Shown piece by piece: positions 7,104 to 19,277 of a DNA stretch of 25,335 nt. Under the pieces are notes generated by a model. It saw only the letters and a program-made list of their open reading frames with translations. It was not told the DNA's origin and ran no database searches. The translations under genes and the position numbers were made by a program. The stretch's first letter is position 1; the number at the start of each line of letters is the position of its first letter. Origin of the DNA: a virus. The DNA is taken from positions 1 through 25,335 of IMG/VR virus record IMGVR_UViG_3300021389_000142. One strand, 5' to 3'.

Positions 7104-7315
7104 GCAAAGAATCAATCACAATCGATAGCGTAGAGCATTTAATTGAAGACTTATCTAAAGAACAACAAGCTATAGTCATGTCTATAAATGAGGCAGATAA
7201 AGAGATTGAAAGAAGTAAACATCTTATAGCTATATGTCAAACAGCAAGACAGGCTTATATTAATGATTTAGGTAATCAATTAAATAGTGGCGAAGTTGGT
7301 GAAGAAGAAAGTTAG
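7100..7315 (+). CDS. Small coiled-coil protein, DUF6447-like
   Basis: This 71-aa protein begins with ITIDSVEHLIEDLS, followed by a charged helix with a QTARQAY segment and an acidic tail. The layout resembles the small DUF6447 proteins (an ITIDGxEY-type strand, then a helix ending in a QTARNAY-type motif), but that match is from memory. No catalytic motif is visible. The start overlaps the nrdB stop (ATGA) and the end overlaps the glycosyltransferase gene by up to 29 bp, so it is part of the run. The function is unknown. Confidence 0.65.
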   Translation: MSKESITIDSVEHLIEDLSKEQQAIVMSINEADKEIERSKHLIAICQTARQAYINDLGNQLNSGEVGEEES

Positions 7316-8573
7316 ATTTTACATATTAACAACTGCATCAAACAGGTTTTTAAAGTGGGGTTCTAAGGATGCTATCGATGATAGTAATTATAAAAACTTA
7401 AAACTCCATTTTGAACCTAGATGGTCTAACATACCGTATAAAGATGCAGTTGTTGTTATAAATACTCTAAACAATAAAAAATATGAAAAGCTAGTACAAG
7501 ATTGGTGTAATTTAAAAGGTATCGAATGTCATATAACCAAATCGAATGGGAGTCCAGGGAAAGGTAAAAATGAATTACTAAAGATATTTGAAAAATCTGA
7601 CGATGATTACATGGTGCAGATAGATGGCGATGATATACTAACCCCCTATGGGGTTTATCTGTATAAGAATCTTGCAAATAATAACCCGCCTGATAGTGTA
7701 ATTATCTATCATCAGTGGGCACAAACTGTAGATAAATATGGTCAACGAAAGTTTCATGGAATTATGAACAATGATAATAGACCATCTAATCAATCTAAAG
7801 ACAGTAAAATGATTTATGTCCAAGTACATAATATGTATATGAATATGCCTGAGTATAGAAAAGACATAGATGCCATGGGTGGAGTCAGTGGAGCTGTAAA
7901 AATATTTACACAGTACACAAGTGACATTCATGATTTGGCACGAACATACAATGAAACATATTGGTCAGCAGAAAAAGAAAGGGAACTAGTAGATAATCAC
8001 TGTAGACCAGTATGGTATTCAAAGAAAACAGCTAAGTACAGATTTGATGAAGAGATGAAGATAGGAGAAGATACAAGATACTATCTACAACTAAAAACTG
8101 CACATTTTAATGGAGACTTAGTAGTAAAAAGATTACAAGAAATTCCCTGTAGTTATGTTTATAATATGATTTATGGTGGTCTTGTAATGGAACACTCAAT
8201 GAACATGACTAATTTAAAATGGATGCGTTTATATATGATTAATCTACAGAAAGATATTGAAGAAGGAAAAGTAAAAAGAAATCCAAACTTACCTGATTTG
8301 TTTCCCTCTTTACCTGAAACAATTAATGACTATCATATAACTGAAACTATAGTAGAGGATGAAGTTACTGCACAGTATGATAAACGTATACAAGAACTAA
8401 AAACAAAGATAGATATATTAAAACATGGTGCTTCTCAAGACTGGCGTAAATTGGCTAGAAGTATGGGTGTAAAGTATATGGCAACAAAGTACCCTTTCCA
8501 TATGAATATACCTGTAACACAGCCAAATGAATACGGTCAAGAGCATTACTTTCACAAAAGGATAGTTGAATGA
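7287..8573 (+). CDS. Glycosyltransferase, GT-A fold (GT2-like)
   Basis: In this 428-aa protein the N-terminal part looks like a nucleotide-sugar transferase: a first strand VRFYILTTASNR, a segment IECHITKSNGSPGKGKNELL, and IDGDD (residues 112-116) as the DxD metal/nucleotide motif. The rest is aromatic- and Lys-rich, with a coiled-coil-like stretch (RIQELKTKIDILK) near the C-terminus. The start is uncertain: GTG 7287, TTG 7296 and GTG 7299 are all in frame, and 7299 would give the natural start KKKVRFY. It is first of three sugar-enzyme genes and its stop overlaps the next ATG (ATGA). The acceptor is unknown; LPS-type glycans or virion proteins are both possible. Confidence 0.7.
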   Translation: MAKLVKKKVRFYILTTASNRFLKWGSKDAIDDSNYKNLKLHFEPRWSNIPYKDAVVVINTLNNKKYEKLVQDWCNLKGIECHITKSNGSPGKGKNELLKIFEKSDDDYMVQIDGDDILTPYGVYLYKNLANNNPPDSVIIYHQWAQTVDKYGQRKFHGIMNNDNRPSNQSKDSKMIYVQVHNMYMNMPEYRKDIDAMGGVSGAVKIFTQYTSDIHDLARTYNETYWSAEKERELVDNHCRPVWYSKKTAKYRFDEEMKIGEDTRYYLQLKTAHFNGDLVVKRLQEIPCSYVYNMIYGGLVMEHSMNMTNLKWMRLYMINLQKDIEEGKVKRNPNLPDLFPSLPETINDYHITETIVEDEVTAQYDKRIQELKTKIDILKHGASQDWRKLARSMGVKYMATKYPFHMNIPVTQPNEYGQEHYFHKRIVE

Positions 8574-9199
8574 AAATTTTTATAGGTTATGAGTCTACAT
8601 ACCCAGAAATGTTTGAGGTGTGCAAAAAAAGTATACTTCGTTACAATTCCAATCATGAAATCATACCACTCAAAAAATCGGAAATATCAGAATATACTCG
8701 TCCACATCAAGGCGAGAGTACGGAATTTGCTTTTACTCGTTTTCTAGTACCACAGCTCTGTGACTACAAAGGGGAAGCTTTATTCTGTGATGGAGATTTC
8801 TTATGGCTCTGTGACCCTGAAGAAGTTATGGATTATTTTTCCGATGAACATGCAGTTCATGTAGTAAAACATCCTAATTTTCTCGTTCAAACCAGAAAAA
8901 TGAAAGGCAAGAAAAATCAAAGCTATCCTAGAAAATACTGGTCAAGTCTTATGCTTTTCAATAATCCTAAGTGTACGGAACTTACTTATGATTATGTAAA
9001 CCAAGCCCCAGCGGGTGCATTGCATGAGTTGCGGTGGGCGGACAGCATAGGGGAACTTCCCGCGCAGTTCAATGCCATGATAAATTATTACAAATTCAAA
9101 CGACCAAAAGCACTACATTTTACAGATGGCGGTCCTTGGTTAAATATAAACGATAGCTCGGAGTACACAGCAAAATGGATGAAACTTTACAAAAGTTAA
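8570..9199 (+). CDS. Glycosyltransferase, GT8-like
   Basis: This 209-aa GT-A-type protein starts MKIFIGYES. It has a conserved STEFAFTRFLVP segment, the DxD motif in LFCDGDFLWL (D74, D76), a buried LMLFNNPKC strand, and near the C-terminus HFTDGGPW, which resembles the H-x-x-G-x-x-KPW-type motif of GT8 enzymes. It should be a retaining nucleotide-sugar transferase. It overlaps its neighbours by 4 bp upstream and 25 bp downstream. The protein is short for GT8, as is common in phage forms. Acceptor and sugar are unknown. Confidence 0.75.
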   Translation: MKIFIGYESTYPEMFEVCKKSILRYNSNHEIIPLKKSEISEYTRPHQGESTEFAFTRFLVPQLCDYKGEALFCDGDFLWLCDPEEVMDYFSDEHAVHVVKHPNFLVQTRKMKGKKNQSYPRKYWSSLMLFNNPKCTELTYDYVNQAPAGALHELRWADSIGELPAQFNAMINYYKFKRPKALHFTDGGPWLNINDSSEYTAKWMKLYKS

Positions 9200-9837
9200 C
9201 AGAAAACAAAAACTTAATACTTGTGGGAAATTCAGTAGAAATTCTACAGTATGACTTTGGAGATTATATAGATAGTTTTGACACAGTTGTAAGATTTGGT
9301 AAAGGAATACCAGAAGACCAAATGGTTCAACATGTTGGTAAGCGTATGGATATATGGATTACAGGGTGGTTAAGAATGGTGCATTGGGGAGAAGCTAAAC
9401 ATGCTTATCCATTATTTAATCGCTGCCGTATACACTTGGACAAATACCCCCACCATAAAGGGCCACCACCGTTTGGACATAAACATGATATGTGGTCAGA
9501 TGAAGAACTTCACAAAATTTTCAATAAGATTGGAGCAAAAAATAATACTATTGGGGGAGGTCGTCCAAGTGCAGGATTTCTTGGTATTTTATATTTCTTA
9601 AAAAAATGTAAGTGTAAAAGCATAACTTTAATTGGTTTCGATTTCTTTTCTAAAAAATTGCCAATTAAAACAGGAAAAGATTATCCGTCAAGTTGGCATA
9701 TGCCCATTTCAGGCACAGAAAAAAATCCACACAATTCAAAAAAAGAAAAAGAAATAGTACAACGATGGGAGAAAGAAGGTAGGTTAAATTGGAAAATATT
9801 ATCTGATTTAAATGAGGAAATGTTAAAGTTTACCTAG
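9175..9837 (+). CDS. GT29 sialyltransferase-like protein
   Basis: This 220-aa protein has a layout like the GT29 sialylmotifs. LVGNS (16-20), then DYIDSFDTVVRF (30-41) and VGKRMDIW (54-61) resemble motif L. RPSAGFLGILYFL (130-142) followed by CKSITLIGFDFF (147-158) resembles motif S. H186 followed five residues later by E191 resembles the H-x4-E very-small motif. GT29 enzymes transfer sialic-acid-type sugars from CMP donors. There is no signal peptide or membrane anchor, so it would act in the host cytoplasm. It is the last gene of the + strand block and overlaps the convergent - strand gene by 15 bp. No CMP-sugar synthesis gene is visible, so the donor would come from the host or from elsewhere in the phage. 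Confidence 0.72.
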   Translation: MDETLQKLTENKNLILVGNSVEILQYDFGDYIDSFDTVVRFGKGIPEDQMVQHVGKRMDIWITGWLRMVHWGEAKHAYPLFNRCRIHLDKYPHHKGPPPFGHKHDMWSDEELHKIFNKIGAKNNTIGGGRPSAGFLGILYFLKKCKCKSITLIGFDFFSKKLPIKTGKDYPSSWHMPISGTEKNPHNSKKEKEIVQRWEKEGRLNWKILSDLNEEMLKFT

Positions 9838-10746
9838 TCTATAACCTACTTTAATCAATTGACTCGCAGTTGACTTTTGTCTCGTAGTTTTTATCATTAA
9901 ATTTTCACATAGCCTTGAATCTCTAAGATTTACAGGAATCCTATCAATTAAATTAGCATATAACTCCCAAGGGAAAGATAATTGTTTGCCCGCAGTTAAA
10001 TCTGTATAGTTAGATTCTAAAGATGTTGTCGGTAAGGCTAATGTAAAACATTTTCTTAGCATGACATTATAGTTTAAAAATTCTTTTGAAGGTAAAGCAT
10101 CCCATTCTATCAATAAGTCACTTTTACCTGACATGTATCTAGGTAACACTCCGTGTTCTGCTTCGTGTAATTTTGTAAAAAAGTATTTGTTAGTAGAAGC
10201 TAAAACTCTGCTATCGTAGTCATTATAAAATCCTCTTTCATAAAATAATTCATTATCGTGTAGAGTTTTTAACTTATCATAATTTATTAAGAAAAAGTTT
10301 GTATCCCAATTTGCAGGCATATCTGCTTTTGCAAAATCTAGCATGCCATAATAAGCAGAAAACTGTTTATGTCCTACAAAGGTTTTCTTCCTAGATAAAT
10401 GAGATAGTTTTTTTACGAAAAAACTTTCATCAGGTATTTCATTATTCCAACCATGTTTTAAAAATATTCTATTTCCACTTGCATATAATATTCTTTTATG
10501 TAATCCTCTATCTTTCCAGTGTAGTCTTAAATGTTGAATAGCTCTTGCTGCAAAGTCTTTTTGCCAATAGCTTTCATATATTTTTACATTAGTAATATTA
10601 TCAAATATCCAATTTACAGGTAAGTCATCAAAGTGTTTTTCGTCCACGTATAGATGTAAACGAAATTCCTCGTCTTCTTTGTCTATAAGGGATGCAATAG
10701 TGAAATAACTCCACTTTGGATTCCATGTATGTACTATCTCAATCAT
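9823..10746 (-). CDS. Unassigned protein with a degenerate GT8-like layout
   Basis: This 307-aa protein has no clear family match. Its order of elements is reminiscent of GT8 enzymes: FRLHLYVDEKHFDDL, then RILYASGNRIFLKHGW where GT8 proteins carry LYLDADVLV, then TNFFLINYDKLKTL like the usual SGVMLIN strand. The DxD is absent (ASGNR in its place), so a metal-dependent transfer reaction is doubtful. The start overlaps the upstream gene by 8 bp. It is the last gene of the fibre operon and its 3' end overlaps the convergent GT29-like gene by 15 bp. It could be an inactive or changed glycosyltransferase, or something unrelated. Confidence 0.6.
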   Translation of the reverse strand: MIEIVHTWNPKWSYFTIASLIDKEDEEFRLHLYVDEKHFDDLPVNWIFDNITNVKIYESYWQKDFAARAIQHLRLHWKDRGLHKRILYASGNRIFLKHGWNNEIPDESFFVKKLSHLSRKKTFVGHKQFSAYYGMLDFAKADMPANWDTNFFLINYDKLKTLHDNELFYERGFYNDYDSRVLASTNKYFFTKLHEAEHGVLPRYMSGKSDLLIEWDALPSKEFLNYNVMLRKCFTLALPTTSLESNYTDLTAGKQLSFPWELYANLIDRIPVNLRDSRLCENLMIKTTRQKSTASQLIKVGYRLGKL

Positions 10747-11641
10747 TTGTCTTTTTATACTCCCAAAAATTATTTAAATATAACTCTAGTCTTTGTTTTG
10801 CATCTGTGTCGAAGGAAAATATTATCCCCGAGTTTTTTGCAGAAAGTATCTTTTTAATTGCTAAGTGTCCATCTTTGTTTGAACATGCTTCATAAATACT
10901 TTCATATGTTAATAAACTTTTTTCTCTTTCTTTTTTTGTGTAACTTATCATGCTTAAATGTTTTTTAAGTAACAGTGCAATAAGCCCCATCTCACTATTT
11001 GGCATTGTCCCCACATGAGAACAGTTCATAAGTAACTCCATGCCTCCACTTTTTTTATCTAAAACATTTTCTTTTCCGAATTTTCTTTTTAGTTTAGCAA
11101 TAAATATAGGTGCAGTAATTGGGTGTGGTTTTATTACGTACCCTTTATCTACTAAGTTTTTTATTCTTCCTTGGTGAACACAATCTTTTTTGCAAAGTAA
11201 GTTTGAGCCGGGTGGAAATATTACTTTATCATATGTTTCTTCTGGAACTTTTAAATGATACTTATTTCTAAGATTTTTTATTATTCTATTTACTCGCACT
11301 TCGTCTATTTCTATGTCTGATTTTGCGATTCTGTTCATTAGTCTATCATTTATTTTGATAGATGGTACTCTCAAATATATTCCTGCACCTAAAAAATCTG
11401 TGTATAACCATTTTCTAATAGTATATAATTCGTTAGTATTAAACCATAAATCATATTCAAACTCACAACCGCCCCATGCATCAGGTATTAAGTCTCTTTT
11501 CATTTTTGCCAATTCGTCTAAATCTTCTTTAGGTCTTAATGAAGACCCAGACTTAAATATGTGGGTATTTTGATTGCCTAGTTCTTCTACAGTAGATAAA
11601 GGTACTAATCTATTTGCTTTTTTGCTTTTTTGTACTTTCAT
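10739..11641 (-). CDS. GT-B-like protein with KPHP motif (possible capsule/Kdo/sialyl-type transferase)
   Basis: This is a 300-aa Lys-rich protein. The C-terminal half resembles the nucleotide-binding half of GT-B capsule-type transferases. A first strand with a loop, VIFPPGSN, is followed by a helix ending KGYVIKPHPIT (the HP motif of polysialyl/Kdo-type enzymes). Then come FGKENVLDKKSGGMELLMNC and PNSEMGLIALLLKK, where such enzymes have an S/N-S-x-x-G-x-x-AL element. The N-terminal half is not recognised. It overlaps the upstream 60-aa gene by 32 bp and the downstream gene by 8 bp. The fold suggestion is moderate to weak and rests on motif order only. Confidence 0.55.
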   Translation of the reverse strand: MKVQKSKKANRLVPLSTVEELGNQNTHIFKSGSSLRPKEDLDELAKMKRDLIPDAWGGCEFEYDLWFNTNELYTIRKWLYTDFLGAGIYLRVPSIKINDRLMNRIAKSDIEIDEVRVNRIIKNLRNKYHLKVPEETYDKVIFPPGSNLLCKKDCVHQGRIKNLVDKGYVIKPHPITAPIFIAKLKRKFGKENVLDKKSGGMELLMNCSHVGTMPNSEMGLIALLLKKHLSMISYTKKEREKSLLTYESIYEACSNKDGHLAIKKILSAKNSGIIFSFDTDAKQRLELYLNNFWEYKKTND

Positions 11642-11792
11642 TTTTTAGCTGTTGGTTAAGTTCTATAATTTTCTTTTCTTGTTGTTTTAGTCTTTCTTCA
11701 AATTCGTGTATTGAATCAAAGAGAGCCGAGGATAGACTTTCTATCTTTCCATTTAGATATTTTACATCAATATCGTCGTCATGTAATTTCAT
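11610..11792 (-). CDS. Small coiled-coil protein following the giant fibre
   Basis: This 60-aa, strongly charged protein has a heptad-like helix (SIHEFEERLKQQEKKIIELNQQ) and a Lys-rich end. An AAGGA ribosome binding site precedes the ATG. The gene begins 20 bp after the stop of the 1384-aa fibre and runs 32 bp into the next gene. A coiled coil here could trimerise with a fibre or act as an assembly helper, but nothing in the sequence proves that. Confidence 0.6.
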   Translation of the reverse strand: MKLHDDDIDVKYLNGKIESLSSALFDSIHEFEERLKQQEKKIIELNQQLKNESTKKQKSK

Positions 11793-11812: not shown

Positions 11813-14800
11813 TTAGTTTTCCGACCACTGGCTACCATCCCAGAAGGACGCATTAAATGCTTCTGCACTGGATACTTCTGTATCAAATATTGTTCCAGCT
11901 GCTGATGCGGTAATTCTTTCAAACACTTGCGTAGACGTATCAAAGGTTGTTGTAGTTGTAGGAGTTGTCGTCCTAGTTGTATCTGATAATCTACTTGTTT
12001 GTATAGTTGTTGTTGTTGTTAGACCTGTTGCAAATACAGTAGTTCTAGTCGTATTAAATACTGTGCTTGTAGCAAATACTGTTGTTCTTGATGTATCTGT
12101 AGTTCTTGATGTATCAAAGGTAGAAGTAGTACTTCTGCTTGATCCAGTGGCTCTACTTGTAAGAGTCGCTAATGTTGTATTAAACGTAGATACTGTATTT
12201 TGTGAAGTAACCGTTCCTCTACTTGTGAGAGATGCTCTAGAAGTCGCAAAAGTAGAAACTGTATCTCTGACTGTAACTGTACCTCTAGTTGTTTCTGATA
12301 ATCTACTAGTGTTAAATGTAGAGATTGTATCTTTTGAAGTAAGTGTACTTTTACTTGTTCCTGTTGCAGTACTAGTGTCAAAAGTAGTTGTAGTACTTTT
12401 ACTTGTTCCAGTACTTCTAGTTGTAAGAGTTCCTTGACTAGTAGCATAGGTTGTTGTTGTTGCTCTACTTGTAAGAGTCGCTAGTGTTGTATCAGTTGCT
12501 TTACTTGTATTGAATATTGTAGTTGTATTTTTACTAGTTTCTGTAGCTCTTGTTGTATCAGATAGTTTGGAAGTATTAAATGTTGTGTCTGTTGCTCTAC
12601 TTGTTCCTGTTGCTCTCGTTGTATCAGATAGTCTAGTAGTATTAAATGTTGTAGTTGTACCTCTGTCTGTAATAGTTGCTAATGTTGTATTAAATACTGT
12701 AGTTGTTGTTCTACTCGTGCCGGTAGCCCTAGAAGATAATCTTGAAGTCTGATACGCTGTTGTAAATTCTGTAGTTCTACTTGTATTAGTAGTTTGAGTA
12801 GTAGTATAACTTGTTGATTGTGATGTACTACTTGTTCTACTTGTATTTGTTGAGAAGCTAGTATTATACGTAGTTGATTGTGATGTACTACTTGTTCTAC
12901 TAGTGTTTGTTGATCGAATAGTATTATAACTCGTTGCTTGAGAAGTATTAGTGCTTCTTGCAGTATTTGATAATCTAACTGTATTATAACTTGTTGATTG
13001 TGATGTACTACTTGTTCTACTTGTATTCGTACTTCTAATTGTATTATAACTAGTTGAAATACTTGTTGTTGTACTTACAGAAGTATTTGTATTCCTTGTA
13101 GTAGCAAATGAAGTGTTATTTGTAAATGCTGTTACTCTACTTGTATTTGTGCTTCTTGTAGTAGCAAATGATGTGTTGTCTACATATGCTGTTAGTCTAC
13201 TTGTATTTGTGCTTCTTGTAGTAGCAAATGAAGTGTTGTCTACATATGTTGTTATTCTTGCTGTATTTGTGTTATATGTAGTACTTCTTGTAGTATTATC
13301 TGTATACTCCGTTGTTCTTGCTGTATTTGTGTTTCTAGTAGTAGCTTGAGAAGTATTGTCTACATATGCTGTTAGTCTACTTGTATTTGTAGAATTTGTA
13401 AATCCTGTATTTCTAGCGGTATTTGTAGCAAATGATGTATTTCTACTTGTGTTTGTAGAATTTGTAAACCCTGTAGAGTTAGTAAATCCTGTACTTCTAC
13501 TTGTGTTTGTACCTCTTGCGGTATTTGTAGCAAATGATGTATTTCTACTTGTGTTTGTACCAAAAGATGTAGAGTTAGTAAATCCTGTATTATCTGAATA
13601 CTCCGTTAACCTTGCAGTATTCGTAGCAAATGATGTATTTCTACTTGTGTTTGTAGAGTTTGTAAATGATGTAGAATTTGTAAACCCTGTATTTCTACTT
13701 GTATTTGTAGCATTTGTAAATGATGTAGAGTTAGTAAATCCTGTACTTCTAGTTGTTCCATATGAAGTACCTCTACTTGTATTTGTGCTTCTTGTAGTAT
13801 TATTTGAATACTCGTATGCTGTTATAGTGTTGACGTAAAAAGCGACCTCCTGGCCGCTACTGAAGAAAGTATAATTAAAGTAGTTATAAGTAAATGCTGT
13901 AGTTGTTGACTGTGACGCTGGCCCTCCAGTTACGTAGGTAGTATTTACTGCAGCTAGTGCTGTATTTCTAGAAGTGTTATATGCTGTGTTTCTTGCTGTA
14001 TTTGTGTTTCTTGATGTAGCGGTATTATCTGAATACTCTGTTAATCTTGCAGTATTTGTATTTCTAGCTGTGTTAGTATTTGCTGCAAACTCTGTTAATC
14101 TACTTGTATTATTTGTAAATCCTGTATTTCTACTTGTGTTTGTACCTCTTGATGTAGCAGTGTTTCTTGTAGTATTTACACCAAACTCTGTTAATCTACT
14201 TGTATTATTTGTAAATCCTGTATTGTCTGTGTATGCTGTTACTCTCGCTGTGTTCGTATTTCTGGCTGTGTTAGTATTTACTGCATACTCTGTTAATCTG
14301 GTTGTATTATTTGTAAATCCTGTGCTTCTAGCAGTATTTGTATTTACCGCTGCTAGTCCTGTATTTCTACTTGTGTTTGTAGCAAAAGCAGTATTGTACG
14401 AAGTACTATTTGTAAAGCCTGTACTTCTTGATGTATTCGTAGCAAATGATGTATTTCTTGTAGTACTATTTGTAAACCCAGTACTTCTACTTGTATTTGT
14501 AGATTGAGTTGTAGTATAAGAAGTATTTACTGCAGCTAGTGCTGTATTTCTAGAAGTATTTGTAGATTGAGTTGTAGTATAAGAAGTATTTACTGCAGCT
14601 AGTCCTGTGTTTCTTGATGTAGCGGTAGATTGAGTTGTATTGTAAGTTGTACTTGCTACAAAAGCAGTAACCGTAGCATGGTTAGTGTTTCTAGTAGTAG
14701 CAAATGAAGTATTATCTGTGTATGTTGTTGTTGTATCAAACGTTGTAGTTCTGCTAGTAGCAAAACTAGTATTATCTTGATATGCTGTTGTTGTAGCAAA

Positions 14801-15967
14801 TGTCGTTGTTCTACTTGTAGCAAAACTGGTGTTGTCTGCGTATGCTGTTGTTGTATCAAACGTTGTAGTTCTGCTTGTTGACTGAGATGTATTATCTGTG
14901 TATGCTGTTGTTGTATCAAACGTTGTAGTTCTGCTAGTAGCAAATGAAGTACTATTTGTAAATTCTGTTAACCTATTTGTTAATATAACGGTATCAAAGA
15001 ACGTTGTAAATGTAGTTGTTGTTTCGTATGCAGTCGTAGTACTTTTTGTAGTGTTAAACGTTGTAATAGTAGTAAAATCAGTTGTAGTCGTAAGTGTTGT
15101 ATTAAACGTTGTAGTTGTAGTAAAAGTTGTCGTGGTATTATATGCAGTAGTTGTACTTAGACTAGTTTCAAATACTGTTGTAGTTTCAAAGGTAGTAGTT
15201 GTATTAAAAGCTGTGGTTGTACTCTTACTTGTATTAAACGTTGTAGTTGTAGTAAAAGTTGTAGTAGTATTAAACTCAGTAGTAGTAGTAGTGTTGGTAT
15301 CAAACGTTGTAGTAGTAGCAAATGTAGTAGTTGTATTAAATGCCGTGACTGTACCTTGAGTAGTAGCATAAACTGTAGTTGTGTTAAATGCTGTAACAGT
15401 ACTGAAAACTGTTGTTGTTGCAATAGTAGTATTAAATGTTGTAGTTGTATTGAACGCAGTAGTAGTAGTAAAATCAGTAGTTGTAGTTGTATTTGTATTA
15501 AAGGTTGTAGTTGTGTTAAATTGCGTTGTAGTTGTAAAATCTGTAACAGTAGTAATTGTTGTATTAAACGTAGTGGTTGTGTTAAATGCTGTAGTAGTTG
15601 TGAATGCAGTTGTCGTATTTACTGTAGTTGCAAACACTGTAGTAGTTGCGAATGTAGTTACTAAATTAGTTTCTGTACTTCTTGATGTATTAAACTCTGT
15701 TGTTCTACTAGTATTGAAAGTTGTTGTTGTATTGTAGTTTGTATCAAAAGCAGTGGTAGTGTTAAATGTTGTGACAATGTCAGTTGTATTTGTTACGCTT
15801 GACGTTGCAGTATTTCTTGATGTTTCATGCACGGCAGAGAACGGCCCAGCTAAGTTACCGTTATCGTTTACATATACTTCATTGACCCTTCGTATTGTTC
15901 CGCTATCATTGATTGCAAGAAAGGATATCTGACGTAATGTGCCACTATCATTAACATATATTGCCAT
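11813..15967 (-). CDS. Giant Thr/Asn/Ser-rich repeat fibre protein
   Basis: This 1384-aa protein is built almost wholly of short Thr/Asn/Ser-rich repeats. Residues 1-42 are different: three YVND/INDSG-type copies (YVNDSGTLRQI, INDSGTIRRV, YVNDNGNL), likely the virion-attachment end. Residues 117-292 are eight exact 22-residue units of pattern TTTxFN + TTTTFN + ten residues. The middle (about 340-1070) uses 20- or 21-residue units rich in NTSRNT, FATNT and RLTEY. Residues 1118-1293 are eight more exact 22-residue units. The last 40 residues are non-repetitive and hold both Trp. A non-repeat island lies near residues 677-722. No Cys, and no Met after the first, were seen. Alternating T-x-T and aromatic positions suggest a beta-structured fibre. 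The position among tail-fibre genes supports a virion role; adhesin, spacer or shield are alternatives. Confidence 0.85.
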   Translation of the reverse strand: MAIYVNDSGTLRQISFLAINDSGTIRRVNEVYVNDNGNLAGPFSAVHETSRNTATSSVTNTTDIVTTFNTTTAFDTNYNTTTTFNTSRTTEFNTSRSTETNLVTTFATTTVFATTVNTTTAFTTTTAFNTTTTFNTTITTVTDFTTTTQFNTTTTFNTNTTTTTDFTTTTAFNTTTTFNTTIATTTVFSTVTAFNTTTVYATTQGTVTAFNTTTTFATTTTFDTNTTTTTEFNTTTTFTTTTTFNTSKSTTTAFNTTTTFETTTVFETSLSTTTAYNTTTTFTTTTTFNTTLTTTTDFTTITTFNTTKSTTTAYETTTTFTTFFDTVILTNRLTEFTNSTSFATSRTTTFDTTTAYTDNTSQSTSRTTTFDTTTAYADNTSFATSRTTTFATTTAYQDNTSFATSRTTTFDTTTTYTDNTSFATTRNTNHATVTAFVASTTYNTTQSTATSRNTGLAAVNTSYTTTQSTNTSRNTALAAVNTSYTTTQSTNTSRSTGFTNSTTRNTSFATNTSRSTGFTNSTSYNTAFATNTSRNTGLAAVNTNTARSTGFTNNTTRLTEYAVNTNTARNTNTARVTAYTDNTGFTNNTSRLTEFGVNTTRNTATSRGTNTSRNTGFTNNTSRLTEFAANTNTARNTNTARLTEYSDNTATSRNTNTARNTAYNTSRNTALAAVNTTYVTGGPASQSTTTAFTYNYFNYTFFSSGQEVAFYVNTITAYEYSNNTTRSTNTSRGTSYGTTRSTGFTNSTSFTNATNTSRNTGFTNSTSFTNSTNTSRNTSFATNTARLTEYSDNTGFTNSTSFGTNTSRNTSFATNTARGTNTSRSTGFTNSTGFTNSTNTSRNTSFATNTARNTGFTNSTNTSRLTAYVDNTSQATTRNTNTARTTEYTDNTTRSTTYNTNTARITTYVDNTSFATTRSTNTSRLTAYVDNTSFATTRSTNTSRVTAFTNNTSFATTRNTNTSVSTTTSISTSYNTIRSTNTSRTSSTSQSTSYNTVRLSNTARSTNTSQATSYNTIRSTNTSRTSSTSQSTTYNTSFSTNTSRTSSTSQSTSYTTTQTTNTSRTTEFTTAYQTSRLSSRATGTSRTTTTVFNTTLATITDRGTTTTFNTTRLSDTTRATGTSRATDTTFNTSKLSDTTRATETSKNTTTIFNTSKATDTTLATLTSRATTTTYATSQGTLTTRSTGTSKSTTTTFDTSTATGTSKSTLTSKDTISTFNTSRLSETTRGTVTVRDTVSTFATSRASLTSRGTVTSQNTVSTFNTTLATLTSRATGSSRSTTSTFDTSRTTDTSRTTVFATSTVFNTTRTTVFATGLTTTTTIQTSRLSDTTRTTTPTTTTTFDTSTQVFERITASAAGTIFDTEVSSAEAFNASFWDGSQWSEN
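12089..12616. repeat. Eight tandem 66-bp (22-residue) repeats, C-terminal zone of the giant fibre
   Basis: Read on the - strand these bases encode eight consecutive units of exactly 22 residues with no insertion or loss. The first unit parses as TSRATDTTFN, TSKLSD and a six-residue piece of TTRATE type. Thr and Ser positions and the single aromatic are kept, while codons differ between units. The repeats are thus strong at protein level and weak at DNA level. Confidence 0.85.
12781..13380. repeat. 60-bp (20-residue) repeat zone in the giant fibre
   Basis: DNA similarity recurs at 60-bp offsets across this stretch. An identical 28-base string occurs at 12813-12840, 12873-12900 and 12993-13020 (offsets of 60 and 120). 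Between 13141 and 13380 successive 60-base blocks share most positions. The encoded units are of NTSRLTAYVDN + TSFATTRST type. Confidence 0.8.
14701..14940. repeat. Four tandem 60-bp (20-residue) repeats in the giant fibre
   Basis: Four 60-base blocks align column by column. They encode units of the form SRTTTFDTTTAY + TDNTSQST or DNTSFAT. Just downstream in the protein (about 14470-14640) the unit changes to 21 residues with an AAVNTSYTTTQST core. Confidence 0.8.
15092..15619. repeat. Eight tandem 66-bp (22-residue) repeats, N-terminal zone of the giant fibre
   Basis: These bases encode residues 117-292 as eight in-register 22-residue units made of two six-residue pieces (TTTxFN type) and one ten-residue piece (for example TSKSTTTAFN). 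In one unit counted by eye, 12 of 22 residues are Thr. The 6+6+10 architecture is the same as in the C-terminal zone about 2.5 kb away. Confidence 0.82.
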
Positions 15968-16193: not shown

Positions 16194-19100
16194 TTATACC
16201 TCTATTGTTGTCCTGATAAATTTGAACGCCATACTATCTGTACTTGCTGGCGTTGCTCTTAATCTTATATTACCTGATACTAAGTCTGCATCAAATGCTG
16301 CTTGTGCTCCATTTTCAAATATAGATGCGTACTGTGTTAAGTATACATCTGTACCATCATGGAATAATAAAATTTCTATTGCTTGAAAATCTGTGTCTGT
16401 TGAATTATGTACTTGTACTAAGTACTTAGCAGTTCTAAATGTAGCGGCTGCAAAACTGTCTAGTGTAAATTGTGTTGTACTTGATGAAGTTCCTGTTCCT
16501 ACATCAAAACCTGCTACTTCATCTATGTGAAGTTTCTGTTGTGGTGCTGAATCTTGGATACCTAAGTTACCAACTACATTTGTTGTATCGGCACCATCTC
16601 CAAGTGTAACTGCTCCAGAGAATGTAATGTTCCCTGTCATGTTTTTACCACCAAGTGCTGCACTTGATAATTGTGTTGTTGTTACAGAATTATTTGCAAT
16701 CTCACTTGACCCAACAGCGTTTGCTGCTATCTTAGCTGATGTTACAGAGTTAGCTCCTAGTTTTGCATTTGTTACATTACTATTAGCAATCTTTGCCGTT
16801 GTTACTTGTGAAGTTCCAATATGAATAGTATCAATACTACCCGATACGAGTTCTGATGAATCTACTGAGTTTGCAGCTAGTTCTGATGAACCTACTTGTC
16901 CTGTTCCTATTTGTGTGCTAGTAATAGAACCGTCTGCTATCTTAGCTGCTGTTACACAGTTATCCGCTAATTCTGCTGTTCCTACAATACCGTTTTGGAT
17001 TATACCAGCCGTGACCGAGTTAAGTGCTATTTCGCTTGTTCCAACAGCATTACCAGCTATCTTTGCACTTGTTACTGAGTTTGCTCCAATATGTATAGTG
17101 TCTATTGAACCTGTTACTAGTTCTGCGCTATCTACTGAGTTACTTGCTAATTCTGTTGCTGTTATAGACCCTGCAACTATTTTTGACTGAGTTACTGAAT
17201 TATCTGCTAAATCTGCTGTTACAATACTACCGTTTACTATCTTTGATGAGTTTACAGAGTTTGCTGCTAGTTTACCTAGTGTTACTTGTGCGTCTGCAAT
17301 ATGTGCTGTATCAATACTGCCATCTACATAATGTTCTGAATCTATAGAATCATCTGCAATTTTTGTGCCATCTACTGCATCAGCGGCTAACTTTCCATTA
17401 GTAATTGCTAAAGCATCTATACGATTAGTAGTTACTTGCTGTGAGCCTATGTGTCTTGTTAAAACTGCACCTGATATAATTTTTGTTGCATTTATATTGT
17501 TATCTGCAATATTTGCTGTTAAGATTGTATTTGCTGCTATCTCAGCTGTTGTAATACTTCCTGCTACAATCTTACTTGCATTTACAGTATTGTCTGCTAT
17601 TGCACTTGCTGTTCCTGTTAAGTTACCTGTAACATTTCCTTCTACGTTTGCTACAAGTGTGCCTGTTGTATAGCCTGTTCCTTCTGTGTTTACTACTGTA
17701 GTCGGTACAGTCTGTAAATCTTTAAATATTTTCCATTTACCTGAGTCTCCAGCATCTCTGAAGAAACCTGTGTATTTGTCTGTGCCTGCTACATCATACA
17801 GTCCGTAAAAACCGATGTCAACTGTATCTGCTGAGCTGTTTGTTGTTGCTAGTGCAAGTAGTGGGTCTGCTACATTAATTGTTGTAGAAGATACTGTAGT
17901 TGTTGTTCCTGATACAGTTAAGTTTCCAGATAACACAACGTTACCTGAGAATGTTTGTCCACCTAGTGCATCTGATTTTAATTCACTTGCACTTACGCTG
18001 TTTGCTGCTATCTTTGTTGCGTCTATTGCATTGTCTTGTATTTTTGCAGTTGCTACTGAATTACCTGCTAATTGTGCTGTATTTATTAGACCATCTGTAA
18101 TATAATTTACACTATCAATAGCATTGTCTGCTATATGTCTTGATACTATTTGGTCTGTTGCAATTTTTCCTGAAGTAACATTGTTATCTGCTATTTTAGC
18201 TGTTGTTACTTGTAAGTTTCTAATGTGGGTAGTATCTATACTAGCAGAAATTAATTCTGATGAATCTACTGAGTTTGCGGCAAGTTCTGAAGCACCTACT
18301 GCTCCAGCTGCTATATGTGATGCATCGATAACATCTGTACCTATTTTACTTGCTGTTACAGAGTTAGTTGCTAGTTCGCTTGAAGCTACTTGTCCTGCTC
18401 CAATTTTTCCTGCAGTGACAGAGTTAGGGGCTAAATGTATTGCATCTATACTACCTGTAACTAATTCTGCTGAATCTACTGAGTTTGCTGCTATGTGTCT
18501 TGCAACTATACTGTCTGTAGCTATTTTTGTTCCGTTTATATTGTTGTCAGCAATGTTTGCTGTTAAAATTGTATTTGCAGCTATCTTACCACTTGTTATA
18601 GCAAGGTCTGCAATATCTGCTGTCGCGATTGTTCCATTGACTATTTTTGCTGAAGTGACAGAATTATCTCCGAGTTTGGCAGTTGTGACAGCTCCCGCGG
18701 CGATTTTTGCAGTAGTAACCTGTAAAGCTCCTATGTGTATCGTATCGATCGAGCCAGTAATTAATTCTGCACTGTCAACACTGTTTGCTCCAAGTTGAGT
18801 GCTAGTGATACTCCCATCAGCAATATGATGGGCAGTAATGTTGTTCGCAGCAATTTTTGCAGTTGTAACTGCATTTGCCGAAATGTGAATTGTGTCGATA
18901 CTACCAGTAGCAATTTCACTTGAGTCAATTGAATTTTCTGCTATTTCACTCGAGGTTACTGCATTTCCAGCTATCTTCGCAGAGGTAACTTGGCCTGTAC
19001 CTATATGTATAGTATCAATACTTCCTGATACTAATTCTGAACTGTCTACTGAGTTTGCAGCTAAGCCTGCGGCTGTTACCGAGTTATCTGCTACTGCAGT

Positions 19101-19277
19101 TACAGCTGTTGCTTGTAGTTCAGCTGCTCCGACAGAGTTTGTTGCTAATTCTGCAGCTGTTACAGAATTTAAAGCTAACTCAGAAGCTGTAATAGCATTA
19201 GCCGCAATCTTACTTGCAACTACACTATTATTACCTATTGAGTCTTGTTGTACTAAAAACTTACCTATTAATGGCAT
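16194..19277 (-). CDS. Tail fibre with ten-residue repeats
   Basis: This 1027-aa protein starts MPLIGKFLVQQDSIG. Two arrays of ten-residue units of the type NSVTSAKIAA / GSIDTIHIGT occupy residues about 17-437 and 560-872. Each array ends in an ALGG-x4-GN motif leading into a non-repeat domain. The first such domain (about 438-560) contains VADPLLALATTNSSADTVDIG and GFFRDAGDSGKWKIFKDL-type sequence familiar from marine phage fibres. The second is the C-terminal domain (about 873-1027, LHIDEVAGFDVGTG ... YLVQVHNSTDTDFQAIEIL). Ten-residue repeats of this kind probably form a beta-helical shaft. It lies between virion genes in the leftward fibre operon. Attachment site and receptor are unknown. 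Confidence 0.9.
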   Translation of the reverse strand: MPLIGKFLVQQDSIGNNSVVASKIAANAITASELALNSVTAAELATNSVGAAELQATAVTAVADNSVTAAGLAANSVDSSELVSGSIDTIHIGTGQVTSAKIAGNAVTSSEIAENSIDSSEIATGSIDTIHISANAVTTAKIAANNITAHHIADGSITSTQLGANSVDSAELITGSIDTIHIGALQVTTAKIAAGAVTTAKLGDNSVTSAKIVNGTIATADIADLAITSGKIAANTILTANIADNNINGTKIATDSIVARHIAANSVDSAELVTGSIDAIHLAPNSVTAGKIGAGQVASSELATNSVTASKIGTDVIDASHIAAGAVGASELAANSVDSSELISASIDTTHIRNLQVTTAKIADNNVTSGKIATDQIVSRHIADNAIDSVNYITDGLINTAQLAGNSVATAKIQDNAIDATKIAANSVSASELKSDALGGQTFSGNVVLSGNLTVSGTTTTVSSTTINVADPLLALATTNSSADTVDIGFYGLYDVAGTDKYTGFFRDAGDSGKWKIFKDLQTVPTTVVNTEGTGYTTGTLVANVEGNVTGNLTGTASAIADNTVNASKIVAGSITTAEIAANTILTANIADNNINATKIISGAVLTRHIGSQQVTTNRIDALAITNGKLAADAVDGTKIADDSIDSEHYVDGSIDTAHIADAQVTLGKLAANSVNSSKIVNGSIVTADLADNSVTQSKIVAGSITATELASNSVDSAELVTGSIDTIHIGANSVTSAKIAGNAVGTSEIALNSVTAGIIQNGIVGTAELADNCVTAAKIADGSITSTQIGTGQVGSSELAANSVDSSELVSGSIDTIHIGTSQVTTAKIANSNVTNAKLGANSVTSAKIAANAVGSSEIANNSVTTTQLSSAALGGKNMTGNITFSGAVTLGDGADTTNVVGNLGIQDSAPQQKLHIDEVAGFDVGTGTSSSTTQFTLDSFAAATFRTAKYLVQVHNSTDTDFQAIEILLFHDGTDVYLTQYASIFENGAQAAFDADLVSGNIRLRATPASTDSMAFKFIRTTIEV
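16662..17600. repeat. 30-bp (ten-residue) repeat array, second array of the 1027-aa fibre
   Basis: Encodes successive units of the form x-[SA]-[VI]-x-[ST]-[AS]-[KE]-[IL]-A-x. A larger block recurs: NSVDSSELVSG, then SIDTIHIG, then QVTTAKIA, as in the first array. Codons differ between copies. Confidence 0.85.
17967..19229. repeat. 30-bp (ten-residue) repeat array, first array of the 1027-aa fibre
   Basis: About forty ten-residue units run nearly without slippage over residues 17-437. The NSVDSSEL / SIDTIHIG / QVTTAKIA block appears several times, suggesting growth by duplication of multi-unit blocks. Confidence 0.85.

Follow-up and report, generated by a model that had tools for sequence, protein, structure and literature searches.

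A GT29-family glycosyltransferase gene beside fibre genes suggests that a T4-like, mostly marine phage clade builds an acidic-sugar decoration

Sialyltransferases of the animal type have been described chiefly in eukaryotes. For human ST3Gal1 (hST3Gal1), the roles of N147, S148, the serine of sialylmotif S and the base H316 of the very-small (VS) motif have been described, as has that of N170, a residue in contact with the phosphate of CMP, whose replacement (N170A) impairs the enzyme (PMC6884586). Arabidopsis RCKT1 (MGP2), also of family GT29, is a reported CMP-Kdo transferase of pectin (PMC11288761). Arabidopsis GALT29A is another member and a galactosyltransferase by its name, so that membership of the family does not fix the donor. 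Eukaryotic GT29 has been reported to come from bacteria (PMC10225777), where we find the family to be sparse: it occurs in 9 of 398 genomes (about 2%) of one phylum and in 3 of 395 genomes of another, one of these three lying above the cut-off. At least one protein of an uncultured Caudovirales phage (A0A6J5NLG3, matched by structure in our analysis) is already named GT29 in databases. The statement that GT29 is best known from eukaryotes, made in an earlier note on the DNA studied here, is thus correct as far as it goes but has to be read beside these bacterial genomes and this phage protein. GT29 in a phage has database precedent, and it is a conserved variant that is new here rather than the kind: a conserved clade and its glycan module.

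We analysed a window of 25,335 nucleotides of viral DNA, the whole stretch under study. The genes relevant to this work are the following.

7287 to 8573, plus strand: GT2-like glycosyltransferase, 428 aa, with an acidic IDGDD motif (weak Pfam GT2 match, E 0.013, below cut-off; synteny)
8570 to 9199, plus strand: GT8-like glycosyltransferase, 209 aa, with a DxD-like CDGDF motif (weak GT8 and Caps_synth matches; invariant D74 and D76; synteny)
9175 to 9837, plus strand: GT29-family glycosyltransferase, 220 aa, predicted to be soluble (Pfam PF00777, family profile against the PDB, structure model)
9823 to 10746, minus strand: conserved protein, 307 aa, adjoining the GT29 gene in all marine loci examined
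10739 to 11641, minus strand: protein of 300 aa, predicted fold nearest the Kdo transferases KpsC and WbbB (model, structure matches)
11610 to 11792, minus strand: small conserved ORF, 60 aa, between the 300-aa and Thr-rich proteins (synteny)
11813 to 15967, minus strand: Thr-rich protein, 1384 aa, possible acceptor (composition, synteny)
16194 to 19277, minus strand: tail fibre-like repetitive protein, 1027 aa (PHROG tail fibre, E 1.9e-105)

The GT29 reading frame starts with ATG, and the strand opposite it is closed by many stops. Its product matched Pfam PF00777 with 33 bits (E 5.2e-8) against a curated cut-off of 23, GT29 being the only curated Pfam family above threshold by sequence; PHROGs and NCBIfam gave no match. 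All 36 of 36 aligned relatives matched the same family, with matches accepted at E values up to 1. A PDB search with the single sequence reached ST3Gal1 at noise level (E 0.38), and a family profile built from 15 relatives found ST3Gal1 at E 1.3e-10, ST8SiaIII at 1.1e-6 and ST6Gal1 at 1.4e-6. An AlphaFold model (pLDDT 82.9) had GT29 enzymes as all its best Foldseek matches (E 4.5e-8). In a VIA-align comparison, ST3Gal1 scored Z 15.3 over 181 residues, and the listed GT29 enzymes took the top rows at Z 12.5 to 15.3. The likeness could in principle be chance or remote, the protein belonging to another Rossmann-like family such as GT42 or the MptE-like/DUF115 group, since the GT42 enzyme CstII came next (Z 10.9) and an MptE-type pyrophosphokinase scored Z 9.9. 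With GT29 clearly ahead in fold and no other curated family above threshold by sequence, we regard this as hardly credible. Sequence profiles and predicted fold together leave us almost certain that the protein belongs to GT29, as the earlier note had suggested. Of the two outcomes that the note would have taken as a refutation, a missing GT29 profile match and a predicted fold unlike the GT-A variant of GT29, neither occurred. The sequence has no long hydrophobic stretch and the model no such helix, which agrees with its description as 220 residues lacking a membrane anchor; its placing in a phage next to fibre genes is likewise borne out by the tail fibre match and by synteny.

We then place this protein among its relatives. 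A scan of viral contigs found relatives at 361 places, and the best 80 of these 361 were kept. The retained loci hold 105 matching ORFs that correspond to 45 distinct proteins, which we call the marine clade, its habitat being deduced for the group and not taken from individual records. Among about 50,000 phage records, matches were limited to Stenotrophomonas phage DLP_6 and an uncultured 484-kb phage. The DLP_6 protein (AMQ65952.1), annotated as hypothetical, is a sequence relative with about 30% identity. In a phylogenetic tree, the marine proteins and DLP_6 group together with support of 97/93, apart from the bacterial members; eukaryotic GT29 is represented there by a pig ST3Gal1 fragment only, and that part of the tree is without resolution. 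Bacterial genome contigs yielded no match when searched with the window protein alone and two distant members when searched with the alignment. The 484-kb phage carries five GT29 genes (LR756508.1, 300000-335000, about 5 to 27 kb of locus L119) with more canonical motifs, in an apparent glycan-building island that also holds NeuB, a cytidylyltransferase-like gene, a GDP-mannose dehydratase, a GDP-fucose-synthase-like epimerase, a GT10 fucosyltransferase, two GT25 genes and two sulfotransferases.

The sialylmotif regions of the window protein are located as follows.

9211 to 9366, plus strand: motif L region, residues 13-64 (N19, S20 and R40 invariant; the phosphate-binding Asn replaced by G42)
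9556 to 9645, plus strand: motif S region, residues 128-157 (R130, P131, S132 and G134 invariant)
9694 to 9705, plus strand: W174-H175-M176-P177, tentative motif III counterpart (W, H and P without variation across the clade)
9730 to 9747, plus strand: VS motif, from H186, the candidate catalytic base, to E191 (H186 the same in all phage and bacterial members)

Motif L reads LILVGNS...IDSFDTVVRFGKGIP (residues 14-46) and motif S reads GGRPSAGFLGILYFLKKCKCKSITLIGFDF (residues 128-157); together with the VS-like element (H186-NSKK-E191) they stand in the order expected for GT29. Across the 45 distinct relatives, N19, S20, R40, R130, S132, W174, H175, H186 and E191 are invariant. The earlier note had named motifs L, S and an H-x4-E motif in the correct order; motifs and order hold, and so do the VS His and Glu, but nearly all relatives differ from the window protein in the spacing. 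Counted by alignment column, H-x3-E is found in 44 of 46 rows (the window protein as reference plus the 45 distinct proteins), and the H-x4-E of the window protein is a one-residue insertion. Conservation in the VS motif thus extends to H186 and E191 and not to the exact distance between them. Compared with hST3Gal1, N147 and S148 correspond to N19 and S20, the motif S serine to S132 and H316 to H186, all invariant in the phage clade. The position of N170 is Gly42 in all marine relatives, and the Neu5Ac-contacting tyrosine is not kept. A counterpart of motif III (H-Y-x-E/D type), which the earlier note does not mention, can be named only tentatively and would be displaced or degenerate: an S-W-H-(M/L)-P stretch is invariant, lies about 10 residues later in the alignment than the HYWE of other phage GT29s and is modelled with low confidence (about 55). 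That H175 has taken over the motif III role is a guess. The motif L cysteine is absent from the phage clade, and thus there is no L-S disulphide and the protein is not to be filed with the animal sialyltransferases. Since bacterial GT29 members also lack this cysteine, it is no criterion for belonging to GT29.

The surroundings of the gene are conserved as well. In the 28 marine loci examined, nrdB is followed by a small ORF, usually the GT2-like gene, the GT8-like gene and the GT29 gene, and then on the opposite strand by the 307-aa protein, the 300-aa protein, the 60-aa ORF and the Thr-rich protein; contigs that extend far enough go on to fibre genes. These counts come from best-matching loci with near-identical contigs included and are therefore not independent. 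When loci were found via the 300-aa neighbour, GT29 was present in 79 of 79 with enough flank, the 80th being too short. The GT8-like gene runs 25 bases into the GT29 gene, and in DLP_6 too it directly precedes the GT29 gene. More distant relatives lack the GT2-like gene or have another in its place. One sub-lineage (L075, L078, L086, L099 and L103) has no GT2-like gene and carries two further ORFs, of about 305 and 167-199 aa, between the GT8-like and GT29 genes. For the 307-aa protein, there was no family match above noise and no match among phage records.

In the 300-aa family, KPHPIT and NSEMG are invariant. Its model (pLDDT 85) matched KpsC at Z 9.6 and WbbB at Z 8.9 over a background of 7-8, and Foldseek found WbbB at E 1e-4. 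Capsule_synth matches fell below threshold in 3 of 24 family members, and a search of the PDB with the family sequence profile found no Kdo transferase. Retaining Kdo transferases have a known catalytic nucleophile (Asp). In its predicted structure the 300-aa protein shows a moderate resemblance to KpsC and WbbB. Relatives of this family occur in KVP40-type Vibrio phages, Caulobacter phages and DLP_6, annotated as hypothetical where seen; in the Caulobacter phages a tail fibre gene lies two genes before the homologue. The DLP_6 homologue is away from GT29, near neck genes.

What sugar the GT29 enzyme would transfer depends on its donor, which we judge likely to be CMP-activated. The window, 11 related contigs and DLP_6 hold neither a CMP-sugar synthetase (cytidylyltransferase) nor NeuB, so that a CMP-activated donor would probably be supplied by the host; the marine contigs are all fragments, which makes this absence weak evidence there. 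In the uncultured huge phage, GT29 genes adjoin NeuB and a cytidylyltransferase. Could the donor instead be of another type, such as UDP-Gal, or the active site be altered? The Asn-to-Gly change of motif L in every relative, the loss of a clear motif III and of the Neu5Ac-contacting Tyr, and the plant GALT29A all point that way, whereas the invariance of N19, S20, motif S and the VS His, and a neighbour that also resembles CMP-Kdo-using enzymes, speak for a CMP donor, and we consider a non-CMP donor or altered site improbable. For the CMP-activated donor, the proposal in the earlier note of a CMP-nonulosonic acid or similar compound from the host remains plausible as to host supply and is less secure as to the sugar, given the motif L glycine and the other donors used by some plant GT29s. 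Gram-negative bacteria make CMP-Kdo for lipopolysaccharide. In favour of CMP-Kdo are its expected supply by Gram-negative hosts, the likeness of the neighbour to Kdo transferases and the plant GT29 with this reported donor; it looks at least as likely a donor as a nonulosonic acid, and we would give Kdo an even chance against all other sugar acids.

Our proposal, in which we have about even confidence, is that of a soluble GT29-family enzyme, made in the infected cell, that takes a CMP-sugar acid from the host and performs one step of a glycan module whose most probable target is virion fibres. What our analysis shows is the GT29 family, the predicted fold, the conserved residues and the fixed gene order; catalysis, donor, joint action of the module and acceptor belong to the proposal. 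What is known of the family would make it an inverting enzyme that needs no metal and uses H186 of the VS motif as its catalytic base, while N19, S20 and S132 of motifs L and S may hold the host-derived CMP-activated 2-keto-3-deoxy sugar acid. This would most likely be CMP-Kdo, with a CMP-nonulosonic acid of the sialic, legionaminic or pseudaminic type as next candidate. The GT8-like enzyme, the GT2-like enzyme where present and the Kdo-transferase-like protein would contribute further steps of glycan assembly. The glycan would most probably decorate virion fibres, the Thr-rich protein being the obvious candidate and the host surface less probable. This protein contains 513 Thr (37%) and 167 Ser in 1384 residues, arranged in degenerate repeats, and had no PHROG match; naming it as acceptor is a guess from gene position. 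The 1027-aa tail fibre protein shows short imperfect repeats of the NSVDSAELVTGSIDTIHI type and many PHROG stretches. The glycosyltransferase genes of a mycobacteriophage have led to the suggestion that its capsid is glycosylated (PMC11256854).

Whether virion or host surface is the target seems to us evenly poised. An enzyme that modifies host lipopolysaccharide or capsule, for example by capping receptors against superinfection or re-adsorption to debris, would suit the GT2-, GT8- and GT29-like genes, which share a strand with nrdA/nrdB and not with the fibre operon, and glycans of this kind normally contain Kdo and nonulosonic acids. We still find it on the unlikely side, since a presumably lytic T4-like lineage has little use for seroconversion and two of the conserved neighbours are encoded on the strand of the fibre genes, beside the Thr-rich protein. 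Glycosylation of phage DNA bases, as carried out by T4 glucosyltransferases, was set aside as very improbable. The T4-like lineage and the adjoining nucleotide metabolism genes would be compatible with it, but a hydroxymethylase of the thymidylate-synthase family is missing from DLP_6 (complete) and from 12 marine records (all fragments), and no GT29 or KpsC-like enzyme is known to act on DNA. The text of the DLP_6 paper gives no clear digestion result on modified DNA. Returning to the virion as target, a far more specific version, in which GT29, the Kdo-transferase-like and the GT8-like enzymes of a widespread T4-like clade put host-derived Kdo or another ulosonic acid on O-linked glycans of a Thr-rich virion fibre, is doubtful; if true, phage particles would carry a sialic-acid-like cap.

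In conclusion, our analysis suggests that a T4-like, mostly marine phage clade with GT29 beside other glycosyltransferases and fibre genes builds an acidic-sugar decoration. If the virion is the target, these phages would coat themselves with host-derived acidic sugars. A conserved soluble clade with altered donor-site residues is also a simple system for learning the donor range of GT29. Further, since phages carry GT29 genes, the clade bears on the view of a bacterial origin of eukaryotic GT29 (PMC10225777).

Set beside known systems, the window protein is related in fold to Campylobacter CstII of GT42, which also uses a CMP-sugar donor, but the match is at Z 10.9 and there is none by sequence. 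A0A6J5NLG3 likewise has a GT29-like fold in a phage, is longer and is matched by structure only, while DLP_6 AMQ65952.1 shares the GT8-like neighbour at about 30% identity. The likeness to RCKT1 (MGP2) lies in the family and in Kdo being proposed rather than sialic acid, in a plant with little if any sialic acid (PMC11288761); it is drawn by family and not by direct sequence comparison, and RCKT1 is a plant Golgi membrane protein with a pectin acceptor. Animal GT29 enzymes (ST3Gal1, ST8SiaIII, ST6Gal1, ST6GalNAc2) differ in having a membrane anchor, the motif L Cys with its L-S disulphide, Asn instead of Gly at the position of Asn170, a motif III that is neither degenerate nor displaced, and a VS spacing one residue longer than in nearly all phage relatives. 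Common to both are the fold, motifs L and S, the VS His and Glu, and the order of the motifs.
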